A stretch of 64,000 bases of DNA from Nocardioides lijunqiniae. Lineage in GTDB: Bacteria > Actinomycetota > Actinomycetes > Propionibacteriales > Nocardioidaceae. Positions 6,264 to 63,468 of this stretch are shown piece after piece. The position numbers were made by a program, and so were the translations under genes. The stretch lies in contig NZ_JACJGM010000008.1 of the NCBI RefSeq assembly GCF_015024225.1, positions 62,001 to 126,000 on the forward strand. Direction: 5' to 3'. The notes beneath the pieces are model-generated. The model was not told the DNA's origin. It saw nothing but the letters and a program-made list of their open reading frames with translations, and did not search any database. Every line of letters starts with the position of its first letter. Within the stretch, counting starts at the first letter, position 1.

Positions 6264-7760
6264 CTACGTGTGCTGCGGGAAGCCGAGGTCGACCCCGGGC
6301 CGCGGCGCGTCCGGGGACGGCCAGCGCGAGGTGACGACCTTGCCGCGCGTGAAGAAGTGGACGCCCTCGGTGCCGTGGGCGTGGGTGTCGCCGAAGAGCG
6401 AGGACTTCCAGCCGCCGAAGGAGTAGTAGGCCATCGGCACGGGGATCGGGACGTTGATGCCGACCATCCCCACCTCGACCTCGCGCTGGAAGCGCCGGGC
6501 CGCACCGCCGTCGTGGGTGAAGATCGCGGTGCCGTTGCCATAGGGGTTGGCGTTGACGAGCGCCAGCGCGTCGTCGTACGTCGCCACCCGCACGACCGAC
6601 AGCACCGGGCCGAAGATCTCCTCGTCGTAGACCGCCATCCCGGGCTCGACCCGGTCGAAGAGCGTCGGCCCGAGCCAGAAGCCGCCGGGCTCGCCGGTCG
6701 GCACGACCTCGCGGCCGTCGACCACGAGCGACGCCCCGGCGGCGACGCCCGCCTCGACGTAGGAGGCCACCTTGTCGCGGTGCGCGCCGGTGACCAGTGG
6801 GCCCATGTCGCAGCCGCGGCGGCCGTCGCCGGTCACCAGCGCCGACATCCGCGAGGCGATGAGCGGCACCAGCGCGTCGGCCACCGGGTCGACGCAGACC
6901 AGCGCCGAGACGGCCATGCAGCGCTCACCGGCCGAGCCGAAGCCGGCGGAGACGGCCGCGTCGGCGGCGGACTCGAGGTCGGCGTCGGGGAGGACGACCA
7001 TGTGGTTCTTGGCGCCGCCGAGGGCCTGGACGCGCTTGCCGTGCGCCGTGCCGGTCTCGTAGACGTAGCGCGCGACCGGCGTCGACCCGACGAACGACAC
7101 CGCCTTGACGTCGGGGTGCGTGAGCAGGCCGTCGACCGCGACCTTGTCGCCCTGCAGCACGGAGAAGACGCCGGCGGGCAGTCCCGCCTCGGCCCACAGC
7201 TCGGCGAGCAGGAGCGAGGCCGAGGGGTCCTTCTCCGACGGCTTGAGCACCACGGCGTTGCCGCACGCGATCGCGACCGGCACGAACCACAGCGGCACCA
7301 TCGCCGGGAAGTTGAACGGCGAGACGACCCCGACGACCCCCAGCGGCTGCCGGATCGAGTAGACGTCGACGCCGGTGGACACGCCGTCGCTGAAGCCGCC
7401 CTTGAGCAGGTGCGGCGCCCCGCACGCGAACTCCACCACCTCCAGCCCGCGCTGCACCTCCCCCAGCGCGTCGTCGAGCACCTTGCCGTGCTCGGCGGTG
7501 ATCGCCTCCGCGACCTCGGAGCGACGTCGCGCCAGCACCTCGCGGAACGCGAAGAGGACCGACGTACGCCGCGACAGCGAGGCCGCCGCCCACTCCCGCC
7601 CGGCCTCGGCCGCGGCGGCCACGACCGACTCGACGTCCTCGGCCGAGGCCAGGGCGACCTGCCGGGCCACCTGCCCGGTGGCCGGGTCGTAGACGTCGCC
7701 GAGCCGCTCGCCGGTGCCGGCCCAGGGCTCGCCGGCCCGCCAGTGGGTGATCACGTCCAT
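6264..7760 (-). CDS. mmsA: Methylmalonate-semialdehyde dehydrogenase (CoA-acylating)
   Basis: A 498-residue aldehyde dehydrogenase with the MMSDH pattern: SPFNFP (N150), catalytic Cys in GERCMAV (C281), and ALGGAKNH in place of the usual LELGG, so the general-base Glu is absent as expected for a CoA-dependent enzyme. The family converts malonate or methylmalonate semialdehyde to acetyl- or propionyl-CoA. In this setting it could complete oxidation of beta-alanine formed from polyamines (inference). I chose ATG 7760 because GGGAG precedes it by about 8 bases. ATG 7775 overlaps the upstream stop as ATGA and is the alternative. It is the last gene of the potDABC operon. Confidence 0.9.
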   Translation of the reverse strand: MDVITHWRAGEPWAGTGERLGDVYDPATGQVARQVALASAEDVESVVAAAAEAGREWAAASLSRRTSVLFAFREVLARRRSEVAEAITAEHGKVLDDALGEVQRGLEVVEFACGAPHLLKGGFSDGVSTGVDVYSIRQPLGVVGVVSPFNFPAMVPLWFVPVAIACGNAVVLKPSEKDPSASLLLAELWAEAGLPAGVFSVLQGDKVAVDGLLTHPDVKAVSFVGSTPVARYVYETGTAHGKRVQALGGAKNHMVVLPDADLESAADAAVSAGFGSAGERCMAVSALVCVDPVADALVPLIASRMSALVTGDGRRGCDMGPLVTGAHRDKVASYVEAGVAAGASLVVDGREVVPTGEPGGFWLGPTLFDRVEPGMAVYDEEIFGPVLSVVRVATYDDALALVNANPYGNGTAIFTHDGGAARRFQREVEVGMVGINVPIPVPMAYYSFGGWKSSLFGDTHAHGTEGVHFFTRGKVVTSRWPSPDAPRPGVDLGFPQHT

Positions 7761-7771
7761 CGCTGTCTCCC

Positions 7772-9175
7772 TCATGAGTCGAATCCCAGCCCCGCCCTGT
7801 CGAGCCCGCGGAGCCACAGGTTGCGTCGTCCATCGTGACGGTCGGCCCGCTCCAGCGACCAGCGGGTCAGCTGCACGCCGGCATACCGCACCGGCTCCGG
7901 CGGGAACGGCAGCGGCCGCCGGCGCACCATCTCCAGCGACGTCCGCTCGGTCTCCTCGCCGGCCAGCAGGTCGAGCACGACGTCCGCCCCGAACCTCGTC
8001 GCCGCGACGCCGAGCCCGGTGTAGCCCAGCGCGTAGGCCACGCGCCCGCGACGGGCGGTGCCGAAGAACGCGGCGAAGCGGGTGCAGGTGTCGATCACGC
8101 CGCCCCAGCGGTGCGTGAACCGCAGGCCCTCGAGCTGGGGGAAGGCCTCGAAGAGCTGAGAGGCCAGCAGCGCGTGCGTGCGGTCGCTCTGCTCGAGCTC
8201 TCGCGCGATCCGGGAGCCGTAGTGGTAGACCGCGTCGTAGCCGCCCCACAGGATGCGGTCGTCGCGGGTGAGCCGGAAGTAGTGGAAGAGGTTGGCGCTG
8301 TCGCCGACTCCCTCGCGCCCGGCCCACCCGATCGAGGCGAGCTGCGCGGTGGACAGCGGCTCGGTCATCAGCACGTGGTCGTAGACCGGCACGGTCATCA
8401 GCCGGAGCCTGCGCAGCAGCGAGGGGAACGCGTTGGTCGCCAGCGCGACCTGCGCGGCGCGCACCGAGCCGCCGGGCGTGGTCAGCAGGACCCGCGCACC
8501 GTCGTCGTCGAGGCCGAGCGCACGGGTGCCCTCGAAGATCCGCACGCCCAGCTCGAGGCACACCCGGCGCAGCCCCCACGCGAGCCGCGCCGGCTCGACC
8601 AGCGCCGTGCCGTGGGGGTCGGCCAGCCCGCCGAGGTACGTCGGCGAGTCCAGCCGCGCTCGTACGGCGGTCCGGTCCAGCAGGGCGACCTCGTGACCCG
8701 CGGCCGTCATCGCATCGGCGAGCTCCTCGAGCTCGGCGAGCTGGTGGGGCGCGGCGGCCACCGAGAGCTCGCCGGTCTCCTCCCAATGGCAGTCGATGCC
8801 GTGGCGGGCGACGGTGTCGCCGATGTCGCGCAGGTTCTGGGCGCCCAGGCGGTCCAGCGTGGCCAGCTCAGCCGGCCAGCGCGCGAGCCCGTTGGCGAAG
8901 CCGTGGGTGAGGCTCGCGGAGGCGAAGCCCCCGTTGCGACCGCTGGCCTCCTGCCCACAGGCTCCTGCCTCCAGCACCACGACCGAGCGGCCGGGGTCGC
9001 GCTCGACGGCGCGCAGCGCGGTCCACAGGCCGGCGTACCCGCCCCCGACCACGACCAGGTCCGCCTCGACCCGCCCCGCCAGCGCCGGCAGCGGCTCCGG
9101 CCTCGCCGGGTCGTCGAGCCAGAAGACCGACCGCGCCGCGTGCGCCAGGGCCCGCGCGCCGACGTCGGGACTCAC
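7772..9175 (-). CDS. FAD-dependent oxidoreductase, DAO family (PuuB-like)
   Basis: A 467-residue flavoprotein with the ADP-binding fold near the N-terminus (LVVVGGGYAGLWTALRA) and the ASGRNGG motif of the D-amino-acid-oxidase/glycine-oxidase family. It resembles gamma-glutamylputrescine and related amine oxidases, which release an aldehyde and hydrogen peroxide. The GTG start overlaps the potC stop as GTGA, placing it firmly inside the polyamine-uptake operon and next to mmsA. The operon position supports oxidation of an imported polyamine or its derivative, but the substrate is inferred. A second, clearly related flavoprotein lies at 13810-15195. Confidence 0.82.
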   Translation of the reverse strand: MSPDVGARALAHAARSVFWLDDPARPEPLPALAGRVEADLVVVGGGYAGLWTALRAVERDPGRSVVVLEAGACGQEASGRNGGFASASLTHGFANGLARWPAELATLDRLGAQNLRDIGDTVARHGIDCHWEETGELSVAAAPHQLAELEELADAMTAAGHEVALLDRTAVRARLDSPTYLGGLADPHGTALVEPARLAWGLRRVCLELGVRIFEGTRALGLDDDGARVLLTTPGGSVRAAQVALATNAFPSLLRRLRLMTVPVYDHVLMTEPLSTAQLASIGWAGREGVGDSANLFHYFRLTRDDRILWGGYDAVYHYGSRIARELEQSDRTHALLASQLFEAFPQLEGLRFTHRWGGVIDTCTRFAAFFGTARRGRVAYALGYTGLGVAATRFGADVVLDLLAGEETERTSLEMVRRRPLPFPPEPVRYAGVQLTRWSLERADRHDGRRNLWLRGLDRAGLGFDS

Positions 9176-9963
9176 GCCGCGACGCGGCGCCGGTTGCGCA
9201 GCTCCATGCCGAGCACGATCGCGATGGACACCACGAACATCAGGGTCCCCACGACGTTGACCTGCATCGGCACGCCCACCCGCTCCTGGCCGTAGACGTA
9301 CATCGGGAACGTCGTGGTGTTCCCGGAGTTGAGGTTGGTGACGATGAAGTCGTCGAAGGACAGCGAGAAGCTGAGCAGCGCCGCACCGAGGATGCCGGGC
9401 AGGACCAGCGGGAAGGTCACCCGCCGGAAGGTCTGCACGGGCGTGGCGTAGAGGTCCATCGCGGCCTGCTCGAGGTCGTCGTCCATGCCGGCCAGCCGCG
9501 CGCGGACGGTGACGACCACGAACGACAGGCAGAACATCACGTGCGCGATCAGGATCGTCCAGAAGCCCAGCTGCCCGGCGAACCCCGACGCCACGAAGAG
9601 CGCCAGCAGCGAGGACCCGAGCACGATCTCGGGCGCCGCCATCGGCAGGAAGATGAGCAGGTTGGACGCGGAGCGCCCGGCGAAGTCGTGGCGCACCAGC
9701 GCGAACGCCGCCAGCGTGCCGAGCACCGTGGCGACCAGGGTCGCCAGCAGGCTGATCTGGATGCTCGTGAGCAGCGTGCTGCACAGGTCGTCGGGCCCGC
9801 ACGGGTCCTTCCAGTTGTCGAGCGTGAAGCTGCCGAACTGGTAGACGTTGCGCCCGCCGGGGTTGTTGAAGCTCATCCCCACGACCACGAAGATCGGCAC
9901 GAACGTGTAGACGAGCACCAGCAGCCCGAGGATCAGGACCAGTCGCTCCCTCAACCAGCGCAT
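9172..9963 (-). CDS. potC: Polyamine ABC transporter permease, PotC-like
   Basis: A 263-residue inner-membrane permease with about six hydrophobic segments, starting LVLILGLLVLVYTFVPIF. The cytoplasmic EAA-type loop, which docks onto the ATPase, reads LEQAAMDLYATP. With PotB it forms the channel of a spermidine/putrescine importer. The ATG start overlaps the PotB stop by one base (TGATG) and the 3' end overlaps the FAD oxidoreductase start by four. The order potD-A-B-C is complete, so a functional importer is likely. The exact polyamine is not determined. Confidence 0.88.
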   Translation of the reverse strand: MRWLRERLVLILGLLVLVYTFVPIFVVVGMSFNNPGGRNVYQFGSFTLDNWKDPCGPDDLCSTLLTSIQISLLATLVATVLGTLAAFALVRHDFAGRSASNLLIFLPMAAPEIVLGSSLLALFVASGFAGQLGFWTILIAHVMFCLSFVVVTVRARLAGMDDDLEQAAMDLYATPVQTFRRVTFPLVLPGILGAALLSFSLSFDDFIVTNLNSGNTTTFPMYVYGQERVGVPMQVNVVGTLMFVVSIAIVLGMELRNRRRVAA

Positions 9964-20185: not shown

Positions 20186-21313
20186 TCAGACCTCGACGGC
20201 GGCCAGCTGCCCGCAGGCCCCGTCGATCTCGCTGCCGCGCGTGTCGCGGACGGTCGTCGGGATGCCCTTGGCCTCGAGGCGCCGCACGAACTCCCGCTCG
20301 TCGGCGGGGTCGGAGGCGGTCCACTTCGAGCCGGGCGTCGGGTTGAGCGGGATCAGGTTGACGTGCACCCAGCCCCAGTCGCCGTAGGAGTTGAGCACGT
20401 CGCCGAGCAGGTCGGCGCGGAAGGCCTGGTCGTTGATCCCACGCATCATGGCGTACTCGATGGACACGCGGCGCTTGGTGACGCGCGCGTAGTTCCAGGC
20501 GGCCTCGACGGTCTCGGCCACGGAGTAGCGGGTGTTGATCGGGACCAGCTCGTTGCGCAGCTCGTCGTCGGGGGCGTGCAGGCTCAGCGCGAGGGTGACC
20601 GGGATGCCCTCCTCGGTCAGCTGGTTGATGCGCGGCACGAGTCCCACGGTGGAGACGGTGACGCCGCGCGCGGACATCCCGAGCCCGTCGGGCGAGGGGT
20701 CCACGAGCCGGCGTACGGCGCCGATGACGGCCTTGTAGTTGGCGAGCGGCTCGCCCATGCCCATGAACACCACGTTGGAGACGCGGCCGGGACCGCCGGG
20801 CACCTCGTCGCGCGCGAGCGACCGTGCCCCCGCCACGACCTGCTCGACGATCTCGGCGGTCGACATGTTGCGCTGCAGGCCGCCCTGGCCGGTCGCGCAG
20901 AAGGGGCAGGCCATGCCGCAGCCGGCCTGGCTGGACACGCACATCGTGACCCGCCCGGGGTAGCGCATGAGCACCGACTCGACGAGCGCACCGTCGAAGA
21001 GGCGCCACAGCGTCTTGCGCGTGGTGCCCTTGTCGGCCTCCATGGTGCGCAGCGGCGTCATCAGCGTCGGCAGCAGGGCCTCGACGAGGTCGGCGCGCTG
21101 GCCGGCCGGGAGGTCGGTCATCTGCTCGGGGTCGTCGACCAGGCGGGAGAAGTAGTGCGTGGAGAGCTGCTTGGCGCGGAAGCCGGGCAGCCCCTTCTCC
21201 TCGAGCAGCGCCTTGCGCTCGGCGGCCGTGAGGTCGGCGAGGTGGCGCGGGGGCTTCTTGCGCCCGCGTGGCTCGTCGAAGACGAGAGGAAGGGTCTTGA
21301 TCGGCTCGGACAT
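20186..21313 (-). CDS. rlmN: Dual-specificity RNA methyltransferase RlmN
   Basis: A 375-residue radical SAM enzyme that methylates C2 of A2503 in 23S rRNA and A37 in some tRNAs. The [4Fe-4S] motif CxxxCxxC is CGMACPFC, followed by GQGGLQRN. The SAM-binding GEPLANY motif and the C-terminal methyl-carrier Cys in [11 protein letters not shown] (C367) are both present, so it should be active. In many actinobacteria rlmN lies next to cdsA; here a 5-kb membrane-protein cassette separates them. Confidence 0.95.
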
Positions 21314-21356: not shown

Positions 21357-21785
21357 TCAGCCCTCGAGGCTCACCAGGAGCCACAGGACCAGCGCCGCGA
21401 CGCCGCCCACCACGAGCAGCGTGGTGACGATGCCGAGCACCATGTAGCGCCCGAACCGACGCGTCCTCGGCGCCACGAGCAGGCCGAGCGGGACCGCCAG
21501 CGTCAGCACCACGAAGGGGAACAGGTCCTCGGCGGTGCCGGTGTCGAAGAACGCGCTGAGGAGCGCCGCGAAGGTCCCGGGCACCACGATGATGAAGGCC
21601 AGGCCGGTGAAGAAGCCCGACAGCGCCGTGAACGTCGGGTGGTCGCGGTGCCACCAGCTGGGCGCGGCACCCGGCTCCCCGTCGTCGGTGTGGTCGGGAC
21701 CGACGTCGCCGTCGGCGTCCGGGGTGGCCTCGGGCTGCGGCTCGACCGGCTCGCGAGGGTCGTCGAGGGGGTGGCGGGCGGTCAT
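21357..21785 (-). CDS. Small membrane protein, unknown function
   Basis: A 142-residue protein with an acidic Pro/Asp/Glu-rich N-terminal cytoplasmic segment (about residues 1-50) and about three hydrophobic segments ([55 protein letters not shown]). No family is recognised. Its ATG overlaps the stop of the upstream membrane-protein gene as ATGA, so the two are cotranslated. Confidence 0.7.
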
Positions 21786-22255
21786 GCGGAGCCTTCCGAG
21801 AGTCCGGTGAGGATCGCGGCGCAGACGCCGGCCAGGGTGATCGAGGTGACGGCGACCCCGATGATCAGGCCCACGCCCCAGAAGCGGGTCGGCCGGAAGA
21901 ACAGCATCGGCACGGGGAACAGCATCGGCACCAGCACCGCGATCCAGAAGAGCGCCGTGCCGGACAGGTCGTCGTCCGAGCCCTGGCTGCCGACCACCAC
22001 GAGCACCACGAGGACGAGCAGGGCGCCGCCGACGACGAGACCGATCCCGGCGCCCGACATCACCTGGGCCCAGACCGGGATGCCTCCGGGAGGGCGCGGG
22101 GGCAGCTGCTGACCGGGACCCCACGGCCCCGGCGGTCCCCACTGGCCCGGCGGCGTGCCGCCGTAGGGCGGGCCTCCGCCGTAGGGCGGGCCGCCCTGGG
22201 GCGGGCCGCCGTAGTCGGGACCGCCCGGAGGCGGCGGTGGGGGCTCCTGGCTCAC
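21782..22255 (-). CDS. Pro/Gly/Tyr-rich membrane protein, unknown function
   Basis: A 157-residue protein. The first 60 residues are a low-complexity tail of PPGG and GGPPYGG repeats, followed by about three membrane segments. The last (GVGLIIGVAVTSITLAGVCA) resembles the C-terminus of the protein at 24971-25285 (GAGFLMGISIGFIAGAGVCA), so the two may be paralogues. TAGAGT lies 6 bases before the GTG start, suggesting a leaderless transcript. It is likely an anchored protein with an unstructured tail. Confidence 0.72.
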   Translation of the reverse strand: MSQEPPPPPPGGPDYGGPPQGGPPYGGGPPYGGTPPGQWGPPGPWGPGQQLPPRPPGGIPVWAQVMSGAGIGLVVGGALLVLVVLVVVGSQGSDDDLSGTALFWIAVLVPMLFPVPMLFFRPTRFWGVGLIIGVAVTSITLAGVCAAILTGLSEGSA

Positions 22256-22291
22256 CGTCTCACTCTAGGGCGGGAGCGCCGTGAAAGCCGG

Positions 22292-22606
22292 TCACCACAC
22301 CCACCAGCCGAGCCCGATCCCGACACCGCCGGCGGCCGCCACGACCGCGAGGTAGACGAGCACCAGCCGGGTGTCGCCGAGCTTGCAGCGCGAGCGGAGG
22401 AGACCGCCGCGACGCGCCTGCCAGTAGCCGACGAAGCCGACCAGGGCGAACACCACGACCGCCACCGGGCCGAGCAGCCAGCCGAGCAGCGCGACGGTTG
22501 CGAAGACGCACAGCCGCAGCGGGTCGTACGGCCCCTCGTGGCTGCCGTGACTGCCGTGACCGGGCTGCACGCGCTGCGGCTCCACCAGCCGCGGGTCACG
22601 GCTCAC
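22292..22606 (-). CDS. Small two-segment membrane protein in Tes-like/Lgt-like operon
   Basis: A 104-residue protein with a His/Gly-rich start (GHGSHGSHEG) and two membrane segments (VALLGWLLGPVAVVVFALVG and LVYLAVVAAAGGVGIGLGW) separated by a basic loop. No family is recognised. The GTG start overlaps the radical SAM gene stop as GTGA, so the products are made together. It may anchor or partner the cytosolic radical SAM protein (inference). Confidence 0.65.
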   Translation of the reverse strand: MSRDPRLVEPQRVQPGHGSHGSHEGPYDPLRLCVFATVALLGWLLGPVAVVVFALVGFVGYWQARRGGLLRSRCKLGDTRLVLVYLAVVAAAGGVGIGLGWWVW

Positions 22607-24186
22607 GTGCGCCCGCCCGTGGCGGTCGAGATGCGGGTGCGGCTGAGCGGCGCCCAGGCCTGGACGGCGCAGAACGGGGCACACTGGTGGCCGCCGGTCT
22701 CCTCGTGCACCGTCGCGACGTGGACGCAGCACTGCGTCAGGCGCTCCTCGATCATCGTGTCCATGTCCATGAACGGCTTGACCGTCACCCGGAGCACCCG
22801 CTCCCCCAGCATCCGCCGCAGCCGCTGGTGCTGGCCGGGCAGCTTGCTGGACGCCAGTGCCGTGAGGGTGCCGATGCCGATGTCGCAGTTCTGGCAGATG
22901 TCGCGCCAGATGGTGCTCATCGAGGGGTGAGACAGCGACGACTGCTCGGAGAGCAGGTCGAGCAGGGAGCCCTTGACGATCTGACGCATCGCGTCGGGGA
23001 TGGTGTCGTCGGCGATCCGGTTGGCGAGCAGGTCGGGCTCGAGGTCGAGCCACTCCTTGAGCCTGTCGTGGCCGATGAGCGCGGTCAGCGAGCGCCAGGA
23101 GCCGGAGTCGTCGCGCATCAGGTAGCCCACCGAGCAGCAGTGCGGGTGCGAGCACGGCAGGGCCGTCAGGTCGCGCCAGGTGACGACGCCGTTGGTCTGG
23201 GCCTCGAGCCGCGCCAGCACGCCGGTGTGGGTGAGCCGCTCCATGGGGTCGATGGCGCCGGAGCGACCGCTGCCGAAGACCGGCTGGATGGTGACCCCAC
23301 CGACGTACGGCGTGTCGAGGGCGCGCTTGAGCACGAACCCGATCTCGTCGTCGTTGACGCCCAGCGCGGCCGTCATGGTCAGCGTCGTGAAGATGCCGGC
23401 AGCCGACAGCCGCTCGATGGCGCGGTCCTTGAAGCGCCGGATGTCGGCGCCGCGGTGGTACGTCGACGCCTCGGCCGACCCGCCGTCGTACTGGAGGTAG
23501 ACCTCGACCCGCTCGCGGTGCCTGGTGAGCAGCGCCAGCAGGGCGTCGTCCTGGGCCACCATCAGGCCGTTGGTGTTGATCAGGATCCGGACGACCGGTC
23601 GCGCGACGACGGCCTCGAGCAGCTCGGCCAGCTGTGGGTAGAGGGTCGGCTCGCCGCCGGAGAGCATCAGCACGTCGATGCGGCCGTTCTCCCGCGACAG
23701 GCGCGCGTCGATGGAGGCCAGCACCTGCTCCAGCGGCGCGACCGACGCGAGCGCCGGGGACGACTCCGCGAAGCACGTCGGGCACTTCAGGTTGCAGTGG
23801 TCGAGGAGGTCCTCGAGCAGGATGCAGGTGTGCTGGGTCTGCATCTCCGGCAGCCCGTCCTCGTAGGCCGAGGGCACGGGCTTGAAGTTGCCGCGCAGGT
23901 CGGGCTCGTGGACCTTCGTCGGGGCGGTCCACTCCTCGAGGTAGCGCAGGATCTCGGGCGACTCGTCGTACATGGTGCGGACCAGGCCGTGGTCGGGGCA
24001 GCCGCGCTCGAGCCAGATCCGGTCGTCGCGCTCGACCAGCCAGCCGGACAGCCGTCGTACGTCGGCGAGCGCGCGGTCCGGCTTCTCTTCGTGGCACAGG
24101 GGGCAGAAGGCGTTGACGTAGCGGTGGATCCGGTCGCCGCGCAGCGGCATCCCGGGACCGCGCGTGACGCTGACGGGCGTGCTCAC
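22603..24186 (-). CDS. Radical SAM protein, tetraether-lipid-synthase (Tes/MJ0619)-like
   Basis: A 527-residue protein. The N-terminal rubredoxin-like cysteines are CPLC (C28, C31) and C63 in ERGCPDHG, as in the Tes/MJ0619 family. The radical SAM cluster motif is CNLKCPTC (C131, C135, C138), followed by LSGGEPT. Further Cys-rich segments occur in the C-terminal half (PCSHPHCC, CQNCDIG, QCCVHV, HQCAPFC), indicating extra clusters or metal sites. Archaeal Tes joins lipid chains through C-C bonds. In this bacterium the substrate is unknown, but the immediate Lgt-like and membrane neighbours suggest a lipid. The GTG start overlaps the Lgt-like stop as GTGA. Confidence 0.82.
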   Translation of the reverse strand: MSTPVSVTRGPGMPLRGDRIHRYVNAFCPLCHEEKPDRALADVRRLSGWLVERDDRIWLERGCPDHGLVRTMYDESPEILRYLEEWTAPTKVHEPDLRGNFKPVPSAYEDGLPEMQTQHTCILLEDLLDHCNLKCPTCFAESSPALASVAPLEQVLASIDARLSRENGRIDVLMLSGGEPTLYPQLAELLEAVVARPVVRILINTNGLMVAQDDALLALLTRHRERVEVYLQYDGGSAEASTYHRGADIRRFKDRAIERLSAAGIFTTLTMTAALGVNDDEIGFVLKRALDTPYVGGVTIQPVFGSGRSGAIDPMERLTHTGVLARLEAQTNGVVTWRDLTALPCSHPHCCSVGYLMRDDSGSWRSLTALIGHDRLKEWLDLEPDLLANRIADDTIPDAMRQIVKGSLLDLLSEQSSLSHPSMSTIWRDICQNCDIGIGTLTALASSKLPGQHQRLRRMLGERVLRVTVKPFMDMDTMIEERLTQCCVHVATVHEETGGHQCAPFCAVQAWAPLSRTRISTATGGRT

Positions 24187-24968
24187 GTGGGGACCTGCTC
24201 TCGAGGGGCGGGGTGGAGGACGTGGCGGTAGGCGCCGCGACGCACCTGGACGACGATGCGGAGCAGGACGAGCGGGATGGTCGCCATCAGGAACAGCTGG
24301 GGCCGGGTCAGGCCCTCCCAGGCGACGTCGTTGCCGCGGACGAACTCCACCAGGAAGCGGAACACACCGTAGGCGCCGACGTACCAGACGAACGACTCCC
24401 CGGGCGGCAGCGAGCGGTGCCGCAGCCAGCACCACAGCAGGACGAACGCCACCAGGTGGAAGGCGATCTCGTAGACGAACGACGGGTGCAGGCCGACGCC
24501 GGCCGGCGCACCGGTGCGCGCGGCGGCGGCGGCGTCGAGGGTGATCCCCCACCCGCCGGAGGTGGGCGTGCCCGGCGACTCGGTGAGCAGGCACCCGATC
24601 CGGCCGACCGCCATGCCCAGCGCGACGGCGGGAGCGAACAGGTCGCCGGTGCGGACGCGGTAGCCGACGGCGCGCTTGGCGACGTGGACGCCGAGCCACG
24701 CGCCCACCAGCCCGCCGAGGATCGAGCGGTTGCCGTAGAGCCACTGCTCGGCCAGCGAGGCGTTGTCGCGCAGGTCGACGTGCTGCAGCCAGGTCCCGAG
24801 CCGCATGAAGACCGCGCCGCCGACGACGGCGCCCAGGATGACGAACGCGAGCCGCTCGTCTGTCTGGCCGCGGCGCCGGGCCTCCAGGGCGAACACGACG
24901 CCGGCGGCCACGACGCCGAGCAGCACGAACAGCTCGTGCGTCGGGACGCGCCCGAGGGTGGGGTACAC
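24183..24968 (-). CDS. Divergent Lgt-like (prolipoprotein diacylglyceryl transferase family) membrane protein
   Basis: A 261-residue polytopic protein of the Lgt fold. It keeps GRIG with the conserved Arg, HPSFVYE, and GVFRFLVEF, which matches the Tyr/Arg/Glu signature. However, the normally essential histidine of FHGGLIG is replaced (SILGGLVG), and the GNFxNGE segment reads GCLLTES. Ordinary lipoprotein diacylglyceryl transfer is therefore doubtful; another phosphatidylglycerol-linked reaction is possible. The GTG start at 24968 has a GGGGGA ribosome-binding site and lies two bases after the preceding stop. It is coupled to the Tes-like gene. Confidence 0.8.
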   Translation of the reverse strand: MYPTLGRVPTHELFVLLGVVAAGVVFALEARRRGQTDERLAFVILGAVVGGAVFMRLGTWLQHVDLRDNASLAEQWLYGNRSILGGLVGAWLGVHVAKRAVGYRVRTGDLFAPAVALGMAVGRIGCLLTESPGTPTSGGWGITLDAAAAARTGAPAGVGLHPSFVYEIAFHLVAFVLLWCWLRHRSLPPGESFVWYVGAYGVFRFLVEFVRGNDVAWEGLTRPQLFLMATIPLVLLRIVVQVRRGAYRHVLHPAPREQVPT

Positions 24969-24970
24969 GC

Positions 24971-25285
24971 TCAGATTCCCCCGAAGGCGCCGGGAACGAA
25001 GAGCGAGGCGCACACGCCGGCGCCCGCGATGAAGCCGATCGAGATGCCCATCAGGAACCCGGCGCCCACCTGGCGGGTGCGCGGACGGACCAGCAGCACG
25101 ATGCCGACGACCACCGGCAGCGCCGCCAGCACGACGCCGAGGACGGCCGGGACGCCGGAGTCGTTGCCGTAGGCCACACCGAAGCCCACGATCAGCGAGA
25201 AGGCGATCCAGGCCCAGCACACCAGTGCGCCGAGGACGAGCCCGAGGACGATGAGGTGTCCGCGCAGCTGCCCCGGCTCCGTCAT
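24971..25285 (-). CDS. Small membrane protein, first gene of Tes-like/Lgt-like operon
   Basis: A 104-residue protein with three membrane segments (LIVLGLVLGALVCWAWIAFS, AVLGVVLAALPVVVGIVLLV, GFLMGISIGFIAGAGVCASL). No family is recognised, but its last segment resembles that of the protein at 21782-22255. CATGCT stands 6 bases before the ATG, suggesting a leaderless transcript for the whole operon. Position directly ahead of the Lgt-like gene suggests a shared membrane complex or coregulation. Confidence 0.65.
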   Translation of the reverse strand: MTEPGQLRGHLIVLGLVLGALVCWAWIAFSLIVGFGVAYGNDSGVPAVLGVVLAALPVVVGIVLLVRPRTRQVGAGFLMGISIGFIAGAGVCASLFVPGAFGGI

Positions 25286-25821: not shown

Positions 25822-26345
25822 GCCCCCAGCATGGCACCGGGCACCACGAGCACGTCCGGCATCGCCAGGCTCGCCCACCGGTCCAGGTCCGGGTCGGACC
25901 CGGTCAGCGCGGCGTCCACCAGGGTCCAGGCGGTGCCGTGCCCCACGAGCACGACGTCCTCCCCGCGGTGCACGTCGAGGATGCGGCGTACGGCGGGCAG
26001 GACGCGGTCGCGGCAGGCGGCCAGCGGCTCCCAGCCGAGGTGGGCCGACAGGTCCGGCTCGGCGAACGCCCGCCGTACGACGGCCCCGACGTCGTCGATC
26101 CAGTCGCCGCCGCGGACGTGCTCGCGCAGGTCGTCCAGGATGCCGACGTCGCCCTCGGTCAGCAGCTGGGCCGTGCCGACGGCCTTCGGCTCCGGCGAGC
26201 AGAACCACGCGGCACGCTCGGGCAGCCCGCCGGACTCCCGCAGCGCCCAGACGTCGTCGAAGCCGGCGGGGTCCAGCTCCCACTCGGCAGCCGGACGGCC
26301 CCGCTGCAGCAGCGGACGGCCGTGGCGGACCAGGAACAGGCTCAC
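25818..26345 (-). CDS. Histidine phosphatase family protein
   Basis: A 175-residue phosphoglycerate-mutase-like phosphatase. The N-terminal catalytic motif is LVRHGRP and the second catalytic His is in VLVGHGTA. The canonical RHGxT has Pro rather than Thr, as in some SixA- and CobC-like members. The substrate is unknown. The GTG start overlaps the cdsA stop as GTGA, and the 3' end overlaps tspO. Confidence 0.82.
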   Translation of the reverse strand: MSLFLVRHGRPLLQRGRPAAEWELDPAGFDDVWALRESGGLPERAAWFCSPEPKAVGTAQLLTEGDVGILDDLREHVRGGDWIDDVGAVVRRAFAEPDLSAHLGWEPLAACRDRVLPAVRRILDVHRGEDVVLVGHGTAWTLVDAALTGSDPDLDRWASLAMPDVLVVPGAMLGA

Positions 26346-27217
26346 GTGAAGACGAGGTAGTGCAGCAGCAGCCAGATCGGGGCGATCGTGGCGAGCAGCG
26401 AGTCGAGCCGGTCCATGAGCCCGCCGTGGCCGGGGATGACCTGGCTCATGTCCTTGATGCCGAGGTCGCGCTTCATGACCGACTCGCACAGGTCGCCCAG
26501 CGTCGCCATGACCGCGACGATCACGCCGAGGCAGGCGCCCACCCACCAGTCGCCGTCGAGGAGGTAGACGACCAGGACGACGCCGGCGCCGGTCGTCGCC
26601 AGCACCGACCCGGCGAAGCCCTCCCAGGACTTCTTCGGCGAGATGACCGGCGCCATGGGGTGCTTGCCGAACAGCACGCCGGCGATGTAGCCGCCGGTGT
26701 CGGAGCAGACGGTGATCAGGATGAACGTGATGATGCCGGCGACGCCGTCGTCGTCGAGCCCCGCGCCGCCCAGACCGCCCTCGGAGAGCAGCAGCGCCAC
26801 GAAGGAGCCGAGGAACGGCACGTAGACGAGGGTGAAGACCGACGCGCTGGCGTTCTTCACGTAGCCGTCGATGCCGCGCCGCAGCAGCCACAGCATCGTG
26901 ACCAGGGCCGTCACCGCGGTCGCGGTGACCAGCGCCGGGGCGCCGTACAGGTAGGCGACGACGACCATCACGGCCCCGCCGACCATGAGGGGTTCCTCGG
27001 GGATGTCGATCCCCTTGGCCGAGAGGCCGCGTCGCAGCTCCCAGATCGCCACCACGACGGCGACCACCACGATCACCATGAACGCGGGCTTCCAGAAGGA
27101 CAGCGACGCCGCGATCGCGCCCAGCAGCACCACGGCGGAGCCCACCGCGGCCTTCAGGTCACGACCGGCACGGCCGTGGTCCTTCTGCGGCGCGGGAGTG
27201 GGCGAGGTGGAGGTCAT
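26342..27217 (-). CDS. cdsA: Phosphatidate cytidylyltransferase
   Basis: A 291-residue multi-spanning membrane enzyme that makes CDP-diacylglycerol from phosphatidic acid and CTP, the entry point to phosphatidylglycerol and phosphatidylinositol. The family signature is seen as SPKKSWEG and DLCESVMKRDLGIKDMS...GHGGLMDRLDS near the C-terminus. It follows frr by 21 bases, the standard rpsB-tsf-pyrH-frr-cdsA order. It directly precedes the phosphatase and TspO genes. Confidence 0.95.
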   Translation of the reverse strand: MTSTSPTPAPQKDHGRAGRDLKAAVGSAVVLLGAIAASLSFWKPAFMVIVVVAVVVAIWELRRGLSAKGIDIPEEPLMVGGAVMVVVAYLYGAPALVTATAVTALVTMLWLLRRGIDGYVKNASASVFTLVYVPFLGSFVALLLSEGGLGGAGLDDDGVAGIITFILITVCSDTGGYIAGVLFGKHPMAPVISPKKSWEGFAGSVLATTGAGVVLVVYLLDGDWWVGACLGVIVAVMATLGDLCESVMKRDLGIKDMSQVIPGHGGLMDRLDSLLATIAPIWLLLHYLVFT

Positions 27218-61227: not shown

Positions 61228-63468
61228 CTAACCCGCGGGGGTCGCCCGACCCTCCGGCCCCGTGAGCGCAGCCCGTACGGCGTGAGCCGCGTCCGCCGCG
61301 CGGGTCTCCGACAGCGCGCCGGCCGACGGCTCGACCACGTAGAACACGTCCACCGCCTGCGGGCCGAGGGTGTCGACGTGGGCCGAGCGCACCTCGACGT
61401 CGAGCCGCGCCAGCGCGGCGCACACGAGGTAGACCACCCCGGGGCGATCGGCGGTGCGCACCTCCAGCACCGTGGCGTGCTCGCTCGCCTCGGGCCGCAC
61501 CACCACCGTGGGGGCCAGCGGGCCGCTGCCCCCGGGCCGCAGCCGCGCGGACGGGTCGACCCGACCGTCGACGATCGCGTCGAACTTCTGCCGCAGGATC
61601 GCGGGCTCCAGGTCCTCCCCCGCGACCTCCCACACCGACACGCCGTACTCCCCCTGCGACCAGACGCGCGCAGCCCGCACCGGCGTGCGCTGCAGCGCGA
61701 ACATCGCGGCGAAGTCGGCGAGGAGCCCGACCCGGTCGACAGCGATGACCGTGACCCGCGAGCCGTCGGGCACCGGCTCGACCGAGATGAACACCGCGTC
61801 GCCGCGCAGGCCGTCCGGCACGGGCACGTCGTCGCTGCTGATCGGGGGCAGCGCGGCGCCCGTGTCGAGCGCGGCGTGCGCCCGGCGGGCGAGGTCGAGG
61901 ACCAGTCCGGAGCGCCACGACGACCACGCCTTGGGGGACGTGGCCTTGGCGTCGGCCTCGGTGAGCGCCCCGAGCAGGGCGACGGCCTCGACGGTGCGCA
62001 GCCGGGACGTGACCAGCTCGACGGTGGCCGGGTCGTCGGGGTCGCGGGTCGTGGCGGTCTGGGCGAGCAGCAGGTGCCAGCGCACCAGCAGCGCGACGAG
62101 GTCGACGCAGTCGGGGGCGAAGCCCATGCGGGTGGCGATCGCCCGGGCGATCGGCTCCCCCGCCACGCTGTGCTCGGTGAGCCCGCCCTTGCCGATGTCG
62201 TGCAGGAGCGCGGCCACCATCAGCACGTCGGGCCGCGCGACGCCGCGGATCAGCGTCGAGGCCTCGATGCAGGTCTCGATGACGTGCCGGTCGACGGTGA
62301 AGCGGTGGATGACCGAGGCGTGCGGCAGCGACCGCACCCGCTCCCACTCCGGGAGGAAGCCGCTGAGCGCCTGCGTCTCCTCCAGCGTCTCCCACACCCC
62401 GAGCAGGCTGCGGCCCGAGGCGAGCAGCCGCACCAGCAGCTGCCGGGCCTCGGCCGGCCACGGGTCGGGAAGCGGCGGACACTCGCGGACCAGCCGGGCG
62501 GCCGTGGCGGGCGCCAGGACGACGTCCCGCTCGGCGGCGGCCGTGGCCGCGCGCAGCAGCAGCGCCGGGTCGTCGGCCGGGCGGGCCCTGCGGTCCAGCA
62601 CGATCTCCCCCGACGACAGCGCGACGCCCGGGGCCACGGGCTCCAGCGAAGGACGGCGCGCGCCCTTCACCGACACCGGCCGCGCCAGGACGGCGTCGAC
62701 GCGACGCCACGCCAGCCGCGACAGGTGGGTGATCCGACGCCCGAGGTCGCGCACGTGCACCTGGGCCGCCAGGTCGTCCGCGAGCCCGAGCGCGGCGGCC
62801 AGGTCCGACCACGCCTCGGGCGTGATCCGGTCGGTGGCGCGACCCGCGTTGGCGTGCACCAGGTCGCGCACGTCGAGCAGCGCCTGACGGCTGCGCTCGA
62901 GGTCGACGTGCGGAACGTCCACGAGCCACGTGGCGACGAGCCCCCGCAGGACCGTGGCGTCGCGCAGGCCGCCCTCGGCCTCCTTCACGTCGGGCACCGA
63001 CAGGTGCGCGAGCTCCCCCACCAGGTCGTGCCTGGCGCGCACCAGGTCGTGCAGCGCGGGCAGCCGCGCGCGGGCGCCGCGGCGCCACTCGGCGAGCATC
63101 GTGGTGCGCAGGCGCAGCGTGAGGTTGGGGTCGCCGGCCAGGTGGCGCAGGTCGAGCAGCCCTGAGGCCACGCGCAGGTCCGCGGCGGCCGCGGACAGCA
63201 TCTCGGGCATCGAGCGCACGGAGTGGTCGAGCTTGCTGCCGCTGTCCCACAGCGGGTACCAGACCTTCTCGGCCAGCGGCCCGACGTCGACGCCCTCGTC
63301 GGAGACGAGCACGACGTCCAGGTCGGAGTACGGCGCCAGCTCGCCTCGGCCGTAGCCGCCGACCGCCACGAGGGCGGCGCCGGCCTCCAGGCCGCCGCAG
63401 TCCTCGTACGCGGAGACGCACAGGGCGTCGGCCGCGGCGGTCCGCTGGGCCCGTTCGCTGGCGGTCAT
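61228..63468 (-). CDS. glnD: PII-modifying nucleotidyltransferase GlnD
   Basis: A 746-residue protein. The nucleotidyltransferase motif is GGYGRGELAPYSDLDVVLV, the HD domain is HRFTVDRHV...LLHDIGKGG and two C-terminal ACT domains follow (VIAVDRVGLLADF, VRTADRPGVVYLV). In actinobacteria GlnD generally adenylylates PII; uridylylation is the enterobacterial form. All catalytic residues are intact. It lies 4 bases after glnB on the same strand, the usual nitrogen-regulation arrangement. Confidence 0.94.
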   Translation of the reverse strand: MTASERAQRTAAADALCVSAYEDCGGLEAGAALVAVGGYGRGELAPYSDLDVVLVSDEGVDVGPLAEKVWYPLWDSGSKLDHSVRSMPEMLSAAAADLRVASGLLDLRHLAGDPNLTLRLRTTMLAEWRRGARARLPALHDLVRARHDLVGELAHLSVPDVKEAEGGLRDATVLRGLVATWLVDVPHVDLERSRQALLDVRDLVHANAGRATDRITPEAWSDLAAALGLADDLAAQVHVRDLGRRITHLSRLAWRRVDAVLARPVSVKGARRPSLEPVAPGVALSSGEIVLDRRARPADDPALLLRAATAAAERDVVLAPATAARLVRECPPLPDPWPAEARQLLVRLLASGRSLLGVWETLEETQALSGFLPEWERVRSLPHASVIHRFTVDRHVIETCIEASTLIRGVARPDVLMVAALLHDIGKGGLTEHSVAGEPIARAIATRMGFAPDCVDLVALLVRWHLLLAQTATTRDPDDPATVELVTSRLRTVEAVALLGALTEADAKATSPKAWSSWRSGLVLDLARRAHAALDTGAALPPISSDDVPVPDGLRGDAVFISVEPVPDGSRVTVIAVDRVGLLADFAAMFALQRTPVRAARVWSQGEYGVSVWEVAGEDLEPAILRQKFDAIVDGRVDPSARLRPGGSGPLAPTVVVRPEASEHATVLEVRTADRPGVVYLVCAALARLDVEVRSAHVDTLGPQAVDVFYVVEPSAGALSETRAADAAHAVRAALTGPEGRATPAG

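Follow-up and report, generated by a model that had tools for sequence, protein, structure and literature searches.

Background

Among the described systems closest to the one examined here is that of Tes (GDGT-MAS), a lipid-coupling radical S-adenosylmethionine (SAM) enzyme in which a rubredoxin site is liganded by C9, C12, C33 and H36 and an N-terminal iron-sulphur cluster, [Fe4S4]N, by C73, C77 and C80; Met439 and Tyr459 are stated to be completely conserved in 1000 archaeal homologues, and the active site to bind bacterial phospholipids also (PMC9433317). Mss, the bacterial membrane-spanning lipid synthase, is also a radical SAM enzyme and couples bacterial tails; homologues of Mss are counted in Actinobacteriota metagenome-assembled genomes (PMC11868695) and bacterial homologues of Tes are reported in bulk (PMC8941075). 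For the diacylglyceryl transferase Lgt of Escherichia coli, the residues of the catalytic network are described as essential or part of the network, the Y26A, Y26F and Y26Q variants as inactive, H103 as essential also and the active site as presumably facing the periplasm (PMC4728403). A stretch of 64,000 nucleotides of the actinobacterium Nocardioides lijunqiniae (contig NZ_JACJGM010000008.1, forward-strand positions 62,001 to 126,000; hereafter the window), belonging to a genome of 4.8 Mb in 75 contigs, carries a cassette in which a radical SAM protein related to Tes is encoded beside a divergent Lgt-like protein and small membrane proteins of two families, for which the names MPC and MP2 were coined in this analysis.

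Comparison of the cassette with related loci points tentatively, at somewhat below even probability, to a dedicated system that places lipid on protein, in which the Lgt-like enzyme would lipidate a cysteine of MPC, the Tes-related enzyme would act on the lipid and MP2 would assist.

Gene organisation of the cassette

A sequence-only reading of the window had described an operon of four genes between positions 22292 and 25285. The coordinates, the strand and the abutting or overlapping arrangement of the four open reading frames (ORFs) were confirmed, but the operon proved incomplete, MPC2 and MPC3 extending the run to six genes; because the frames at 21782-22255 and 21357-21785 share a small-membrane-protein family with that at 24971-25285, the unit is taken as 21357-25285. 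The ORFs are regarded as real genes because radical SAM proteins 69-99% identical to that of the window are encoded in 80 loci of other actinobacteria, the counterpart in Nocardioides sp. 503 being 99% identical. The run from 25285 to 21357 comprises, in order:

24971..25285, minus strand: MPC1, membrane protein of 104 amino acids (aa), candidate lipid acceptor (sequence and family profile)
24183..24968, minus strand: Lgt-like, 261-aa protein of Lgt fold (Pfam LGT, AlphaFold2/Foldseek, residue tables)
22603..24186, minus strand: Tes/TrsS-related radical SAM protein, 527 aa (sequence, NCBIfam, PDB match, Foldseek)
22292..22606, minus strand: MP2, 104-aa small membrane protein (profile in 70 of 81 loci)
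21782..22255, minus strand: MPC2, 157 aa, second candidate acceptor (MPC-family profile)
21357..21785, minus strand: MPC3, 142-aa Cys-less MPC paralogue (MPC-family profile)

With the gene starts as assumed, a gap of 2 bases separates the first gene from the second, while the second and third and the third and fourth overlap by 4 bases each; a gap of 36 bases lies in front of MPC2, which overlaps MPC3 by 4 bases.

Co-occurrence of the cassette genes in actinobacteria

Related loci were collected by scanning six peptide patterns over 84,980 species genomes, and the best 80 of 241 relatives were kept, a best-scoring set that hence leans toward near relatives. All 80 are actinobacterial by title (Nocardioides, Microbacterium, Agromyces, Leucobacter, Janibacter, Dactylosporangium, Microbispora, Nocardia, Mycobacterium and others); their flanks extend to 6 kb at most, and a contig end cuts some of the loci short. 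Gene calls from base composition merged or missed small genes in these loci, and the counts over 81 loci (the best 80 and the window) are therefore taken from profile searches in all reading frames. As a separate check, 396 genomes were drawn across the phylum, a sample that may overlap in species with the 80 loci; 17 of them match at E 1e-40, of which the 10 that score over 400 bits, among them the genome of the window, were taken as having orthologues and the 7 further matches (186-229 bits) set aside as a different subfamily.

Co-occurrence across actinobacteria, which the sequence-only reading had proposed as a check, was evident in both samples. The Lgt-like gene is present in 78 of the 81 loci, in every case on the same strand as the radical SAM gene and no farther from it than 1,070 bases (between matched parts), and the three loci without it (L032, L086 and L105) are all broken off by a contig end. 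MPC occurs in 76 loci, each with one to three copies and 96 in all, and MP2 in 70, lying downstream of the radical SAM gene in every one of the 70. The order of the genes varies, the Lgt-like gene preceding the radical SAM gene in 53 of 78 loci and following it, behind MP2, in 25 (mostly Microbacterium, Agromyces and Leucobacter); the linkage therefore survives rearrangement. Each of the 10 orthologue genomes of the draw has the Lgt-like partner, in one case split across two contigs, and the MP2 profile gave 8 matches in the 396 genomes, 7 of them within these 10 and the eighth a weak match of 32 residues. Distances among the radical SAM proteins and among the Lgt-like proteins correlate over 61 loci (r 0.89, reached in 0 of 500 permutations, with host relatedness left in). 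Within the genus the cassette is patchy, occurring in 2 of 36 further genomes. By rough gene calls, nothing else recurs in at least 8 loci except neighbours read as housekeeping genes.

The MPC family

The two small membrane proteins of the sequence-only reading are present, but they belong to different families, MPC and MP2, of which the former is acceptor-like. The common build of MPC consists of about three hydrophobic stretches (by eye), basic residues among which T-R is common, a last helix and G-x-Cys, the Cys standing 5-22 residues from the C-terminus; the region before the helices, taken over up to 50 residues of open frame, is rich in proline (median 26%). In MPC1, about three transmembrane helices are recognised by eye, with an R-P-R-T-R loop and a last helix bearing G-V-C92 and a 12-residue tail. 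MPC2 combines a Pro-rich N-terminus and an MPC-type transmembrane region with L-A-G-V-C and a 12-residue tail, and MPC3 has Ala at the Cys position.

MPC evolves fastest among the cassette proteins (mean pairwise identity 0.26 for the best copy per locus, compared with 0.76 for the radical SAM protein, 0.66 for MP2 and 0.64 for the Lgt-like protein), and the tails beyond the Cys are unconserved. The Cys itself is found in 88 of the 96 copies (92% of the column), and every MPC-bearing cassette has at least one copy with it (76 of 76). One constant Cys on drifting proteins looks like the pattern of an acceptor. A scan for a transmembrane segment with a C-terminal G-x-C motif gave 80 sites in 72 of the 81 cassettes as against 3 in all flanks, Cys being distinguished by the number of loci alone (72 of 81, against at most 22 for any other residue). 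The MPC profile misses five of the 81 loci, three of which end at a contig end (L047, L067, L086); L073 has a G-I-C tail by motif and none was found in L048. No MPC copies occur elsewhere in the genome of the window, where the cassette copies score 74.4, 74.2 and 15.7 bits and the next match 13.0 bits (E 0.53). In two distant genomes of the draw, an MPC-type tail adjoining the Lgt-like gene is carried on other N-termini, namely a DUF2510 protein (L152) and a short ORF of about 32 aa counted from its Met (L151).

The acceptor Cys of lipoproteins lies in a lipobox, [LVI][ASTVI][GAS]C, that follows an N-terminal signal. MPC resembles such lipoproteins in its basic residues, hydrophobic helix, small residue with Cys and predicted outer side, but differs in being mostly multi-transmembrane, in the position of the Cys near the C-terminus and in a residue -1 that is not G, A or S in most copies. 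By the positive-inside rule, the basic residues before the last helix would place the Cys on the outer side, toward which the Lgt active site presumably faces. The NCBIfam name 'lipo-invert' (NF058595) was considered for MPC and rejected, as scanned members do not match that model; in 149 genomes, 106 match it at E 0.001 and 1 over the cut-off.

The Lgt-like protein

A divergent Lgt-like partner had been recognised from the sequence, and the structural comparison agrees: the AlphaFold2 model (mean predicted local distance difference test, pLDDT, 86) has 5azb as its sole Foldseek match with E <= 0.001 (E 8e-6), and Pfam LGT (PF01790) is matched with 104.8 bits against a cut-off of 24.9. The score to the NCBIfam Lgt equivalog TIGR00544 is 68.0 bits, under the cut-off of 118.9. 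A canonical Lgt is encoded elsewhere in the same genome (228 bits, as against 105 for the Lgt-like protein), and the Lgt-like protein is therefore an extra enzyme.

With Lgt (5azb) the protein shares the fold and the conserved charged catalytic network, the equivalents of R143, E151, E202, Y235, R239, E243 and R246 being retained in 21 of 21 members, with the conserved Glu placed at G150 rather than E151 by a second alignment. N149 is replaced by Thr in 20 of 21 members, and the equivalent of H103 is Leu in 20 and Ile in one; loss of this His was rejected as a mark of the family, the genome's canonical Lgt having Trp there. From these residues the Lgt-like protein is read as an active transferase with an altered acceptor or donor site. 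Unlike Lgt it stands beside a radical SAM gene, an association that is partly by construction, as the loci were found through the radical SAM gene.

The radical SAM protein

The relation to Tes proposed in the sequence-only reading was upheld by a nearly full-length sequence match to PDB entry 7tol (Tes/GDGT-MAS; E 2e-31) and by Foldseek, in which 7tom and 7tol are the top matches of the AlphaFold model and SkfB the third; the model is weak (mean pLDDT 65, 20 sequences) and only its overall fold match was used. Membership of the Tes family was not upheld. The best NCBIfam model is TrsS (NF045646; 189.1 bits, under the cut-off of 490), followed by Tes/GDGT-MAS (NF045702; 148.0 bits, under the cut-off of 450), and four other orthologues score 175-201 bits to TrsS and 134-151 bits to Tes.

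The Cys layout comprises C28/C31/C63/H66 (CPLC and C63-x2-H66), CX3CX2C at 131-138 (CNLKCPTC) and C-terminal groups at 345/350, 434, 486/487 and 502/506, all invariant in 20 orthologues with a mean column identity of 78%. The Tes/MJ0619 layout noted previously thus stands for CPLC and its C63 partner, CNLKCPTC and the C-terminal Cys, but not for the N-terminal cluster. Besides the overall fold, likenesses to Tes include the rubredoxin-type site, in which C9X2C12...C33X2H36 is met by C28X2C31...C63X2H66, the CX3CX2C motif and, towards the C-terminus, a region with CC-x-H and P-F-C. Unlike Tes, the protein has no Cys between C63 and C121 and therefore no Cys ligands for the N-terminal Fe-S cluster; in a pairwise alignment Met439 corresponds to Lys470 and Tyr459 to Val490, both invariant in the 20 orthologues; and its partners are those of a bacterial cassette. 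Judged by these sequence features, it is not Tes but forms, next to Tes and TrsS, a third group.

TrsS-type proteins of actinobacteria, in contrast, keep the Cys of the N-terminal cluster (seven scanned, 326-355 bits to TrsS). Several of their genes adjoin a DVU_1556-like methyltransferase gene, recognised by eye in L155, L158 and L162 and by NCBIfam in L166 (136 bits, cut-off 155); TrsS is a partner of the DVU_1556/TrsM-type methyltransferase, which is also the arrangement seen here beside TrsS-type genes. When the L166 methyltransferase was compared by tblastn with the 80 loci, no match was found at E 1e-5. The pairing of several of the TrsS-type genes in L155-L161 and L166 (e.g. L166:4959-7327) with a DVU_1556/ArsM-like methyltransferase gene constitutes a second, separate partnership in the superfamily.

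Two irregular radical SAM genes were also observed. That of Phycicoccus sp. HDW14 (L097:6001-7556) lies in two frames, owing to a frameshift or a sequencing error, and the orthologue in L152 (genome G219, within 6999-9686) has about 200 extra in-frame bases between two matched parts, the open frame being about 900 aa long.

The small membrane protein MP2

The core of MP2 reads DPLRLC...GP...FA..G..GY..ARR.GL.RS[KR]C.L.DTR.V..Y. Its two Cys, C33 and C74, are invariant (70 of 70), one standing ahead of the first hydrophobic stretch and the other in a loop that is probably cytoplasmic because it is strongly basic. No Pfam or NCBIfam model was matched over its cut-off by MP2 or two relatives, and the scanned MPC members likewise match none. 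In genome G160 a DUF6855 gene (L149:6241-6648) adjoins MP2, and G310 has an 87% identical counterpart.

Plasmids and Bacteroidota

The cassette is also carried by plasmids of Mycobacterium branderi (pJCM12687) and Mycobacterium avium (pS2b, typed as mobilizable). The annotations there read 'prolipoprotein diacylglyceryl transferase family protein', 'radical SAM protein' and two hypothetical proteins; the latter are MPC by profile, and MP2 is absent. Two DUF3558 genes lie directly upstream of the cassette on the M. branderi plasmid (L163:3237-4294). Outside the actinobacteria, plasmid pPP1 of Persicobacter psychrovividus (Bacteroidota; L165:5238-7392) bears an Lgt-like gene that overlaps a Tes/TrsS-family radical SAM gene; the Lgt-like protein contains G-R-I-G-C, and the pair is without annotation in the plasmid table. 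A search of 72,556 plasmid records with this Lgt-like protein gave 4 matches at E 1e-10, one being its own record and three actinobacterial, and in each a radical SAM gene stands next to the Lgt-like gene. A phage origin was considered and rejected: 27 pattern matches in viral contigs, from two patterns, were none of them confirmed, and a search of 50,697 phage records (E 1e-15) gave no relative.

Neighbouring genes

The run is flanked in the window by genes outside the cassette:

26342..27217, minus strand: cdsA (phosphatidate cytidylyltransferase), neighbour (CTP_transf_1)
20186..21313, minus strand: rlmN, downstream neighbour (NCBIfam TIGR00048, over cut-off)

A phosphatase-like gene and tspO lie between cdsA and the six-gene run. 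As parts of the cassette, cdsA, tspO, the phosphatase gene and rlmN were rejected, being near 11, 1, 6 and 13 of the 80 loci, respectively. The placement beside cdsA had been taken in the sequence-only reading as support for a lipid theme, a support that falls away, as the 11 cdsA-adjacent loci are all Nocardioidaceae-type by title; cdsA is a local neighbour, and its closeness reflects position and not function.

Proposed function and its alternatives

With MPC as the acceptor, the theme looks like shifting from a free membrane-spanning lipid, suggested previously, to a lipid on protein. In a first step, the Lgt-like enzyme would attach a diacylglyceryl group, with phosphatidylglycerol as its most likely source, to the one conserved Cys of MPC, which, where the last transmembrane helix ends on the outer side, would form a lipobox-like site at the C-terminus. 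In a second step, taking place on the cytoplasmic side, inert C-H bonds of the acyl chains would be activated by the Tes-related radical SAM enzyme, either in the phosphatidylglycerol donor before transfer or in a chain reached afterwards, and the resulting tail may be coupled, branched or otherwise altered. MP2, both of whose invariant Cys would lie at the cytoplasmic face, may be the membrane partner of the radical SAM enzyme or a redox helper.

Several observations weigh against this proposal. As regards the topology, the radical SAM domain and the outer-face Cys would sit on opposite sides of the membrane. As regards the chemistry, with Met439, Tyr459 and the N-terminal cluster lost, C-C coupling of the Tes kind is not simply to be assumed, and the Lgt-like protein has His in place of E. 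coli Y26 and Cys in place of N146 in 21 of 21 members. MPC fails the canonical lipobox, its Cys being C-terminal and residue -1 being G or A in 21 of the 88 Cys copies; 8 of the 96 copies are Cys-less (7 Ala, 1 Ser), resembling MPC3. The motif scan also shows residues other than Cys at that position to be enriched in the cassettes, because the same helices are scanned: the per-base ratio is 83 for Cys, 116 for Ile and 75 for Gly, and the sites inside the cassettes as against the flanks number 31 (22 loci) and 1 for Gly, 16 (14 loci) and 0 for Ile and 22 (20 loci) and 6 for Ala. The partners are, moreover, not universal. MP2 is missing from 11 of the 81 loci (one of them at a contig end) and from 3 of the 10 orthologues of the draw (G382, G418 and G095). 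The MPC profile matches 5 of the 10 orthologue loci of the draw, G219 and G392 being recognised by the motif alone, and neither MPC nor the motif was found in G160, G310 and G181, which represent one family (short flanks were read in G181). Near the Persicobacter pair, no MPC or MP2 was seen.

A stronger form of the proposal, in which the protein bears a diacylglyceryl group whose chains have been altered or joined by the Tes-family enzyme, that is, a coupled or membrane-spanning lipid, with a plasmid-borne core of the two enzymes reaching Bacteroidota, is doubtful.

Rather unlikely, though to be taken seriously, is a system for free lipid, in which both enzymes build a modified or membrane-spanning phospholipid while MPC and MP2 are scaffolds or flippase-like helpers with Cys that serve packing or a disulfide. 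The single constant Cys amid the drifting positions of MPC is acceptor-like instead, and we know of no role of the Lgt fold except transfer to Cys. Met439, Tyr459 and the N-cluster Cys of Tes are also absent, even if, among relatives with an established function, the lipid-coupling Tes stands closest, for which PMC9433317 describes binding of bacterial phospholipids too, and even if no MPC is in view beside the Persicobacter pair or in the distant actinobacterial genomes G160 and G310.

Maturation of a peptide, by which the radical SAM enzyme would modify MP2 or MPC (for example, with a thioether at an invariant Cys) and the lipidated C-terminal segment would become a lipopeptide signal or antimicrobial, appears improbable: no SPASM or RRE-type domain was found by Pfam, the tails after the Cys are unconserved and no other gene recurs in at least 8 loci beyond the cassette and the housekeeping-like neighbours. 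Many radical SAM enzymes do mature peptides, SkfB is the third Foldseek match, MP2 has two invariant Cys and MPC comes in one to three copies per cassette with tails of 5-22 residues, all of which would suit such a role.

A redox or sensing module, in which an Lgt-like protein without transferase activity would bind lipid and the Cys of MP2 and MPC would form a thiol relay for the radical SAM enzyme, is very unlikely, as the charged catalytic residues of Lgt are kept in 21 of 21 members, which is not expected of a dead enzyme, and the canonical Lgt of the genome itself already has Trp in place of H103, which makes substitutions of this kind no proof of lost activity; it draws on the invariant changes of N146 to Cys and Y26 to His, the latter at a residue whose Ala, Phe and Gln variants are inactive in E. 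coli (PMC4728403), and on the invariant or near-invariant Cys of three protein types.

Conclusions

No publication joining Lgt-like and radical SAM enzymes was found in a search that reached few subscription journals and preprints; if the lipidation of MPC proposed above is true, the cassette would be, to our knowledge, the first case in which a Tes-family radical SAM enzyme works together with a lipid transferase. The group described here should not be counted as evidence for membrane-spanning ether lipids, because it lacks the hallmarks of Tes and its partner genes point in another direction. The cassette makes testable a role for part of the Tes-like proteins that have been counted among bacterial genomes, and supplies candidate substrates (MPC) and a candidate helper (MP2). 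If the proposal is true, the classical lipoprotein pathway would be joined by a second route of lipidation, one that targets a C-terminal, membrane-embedded Cys.

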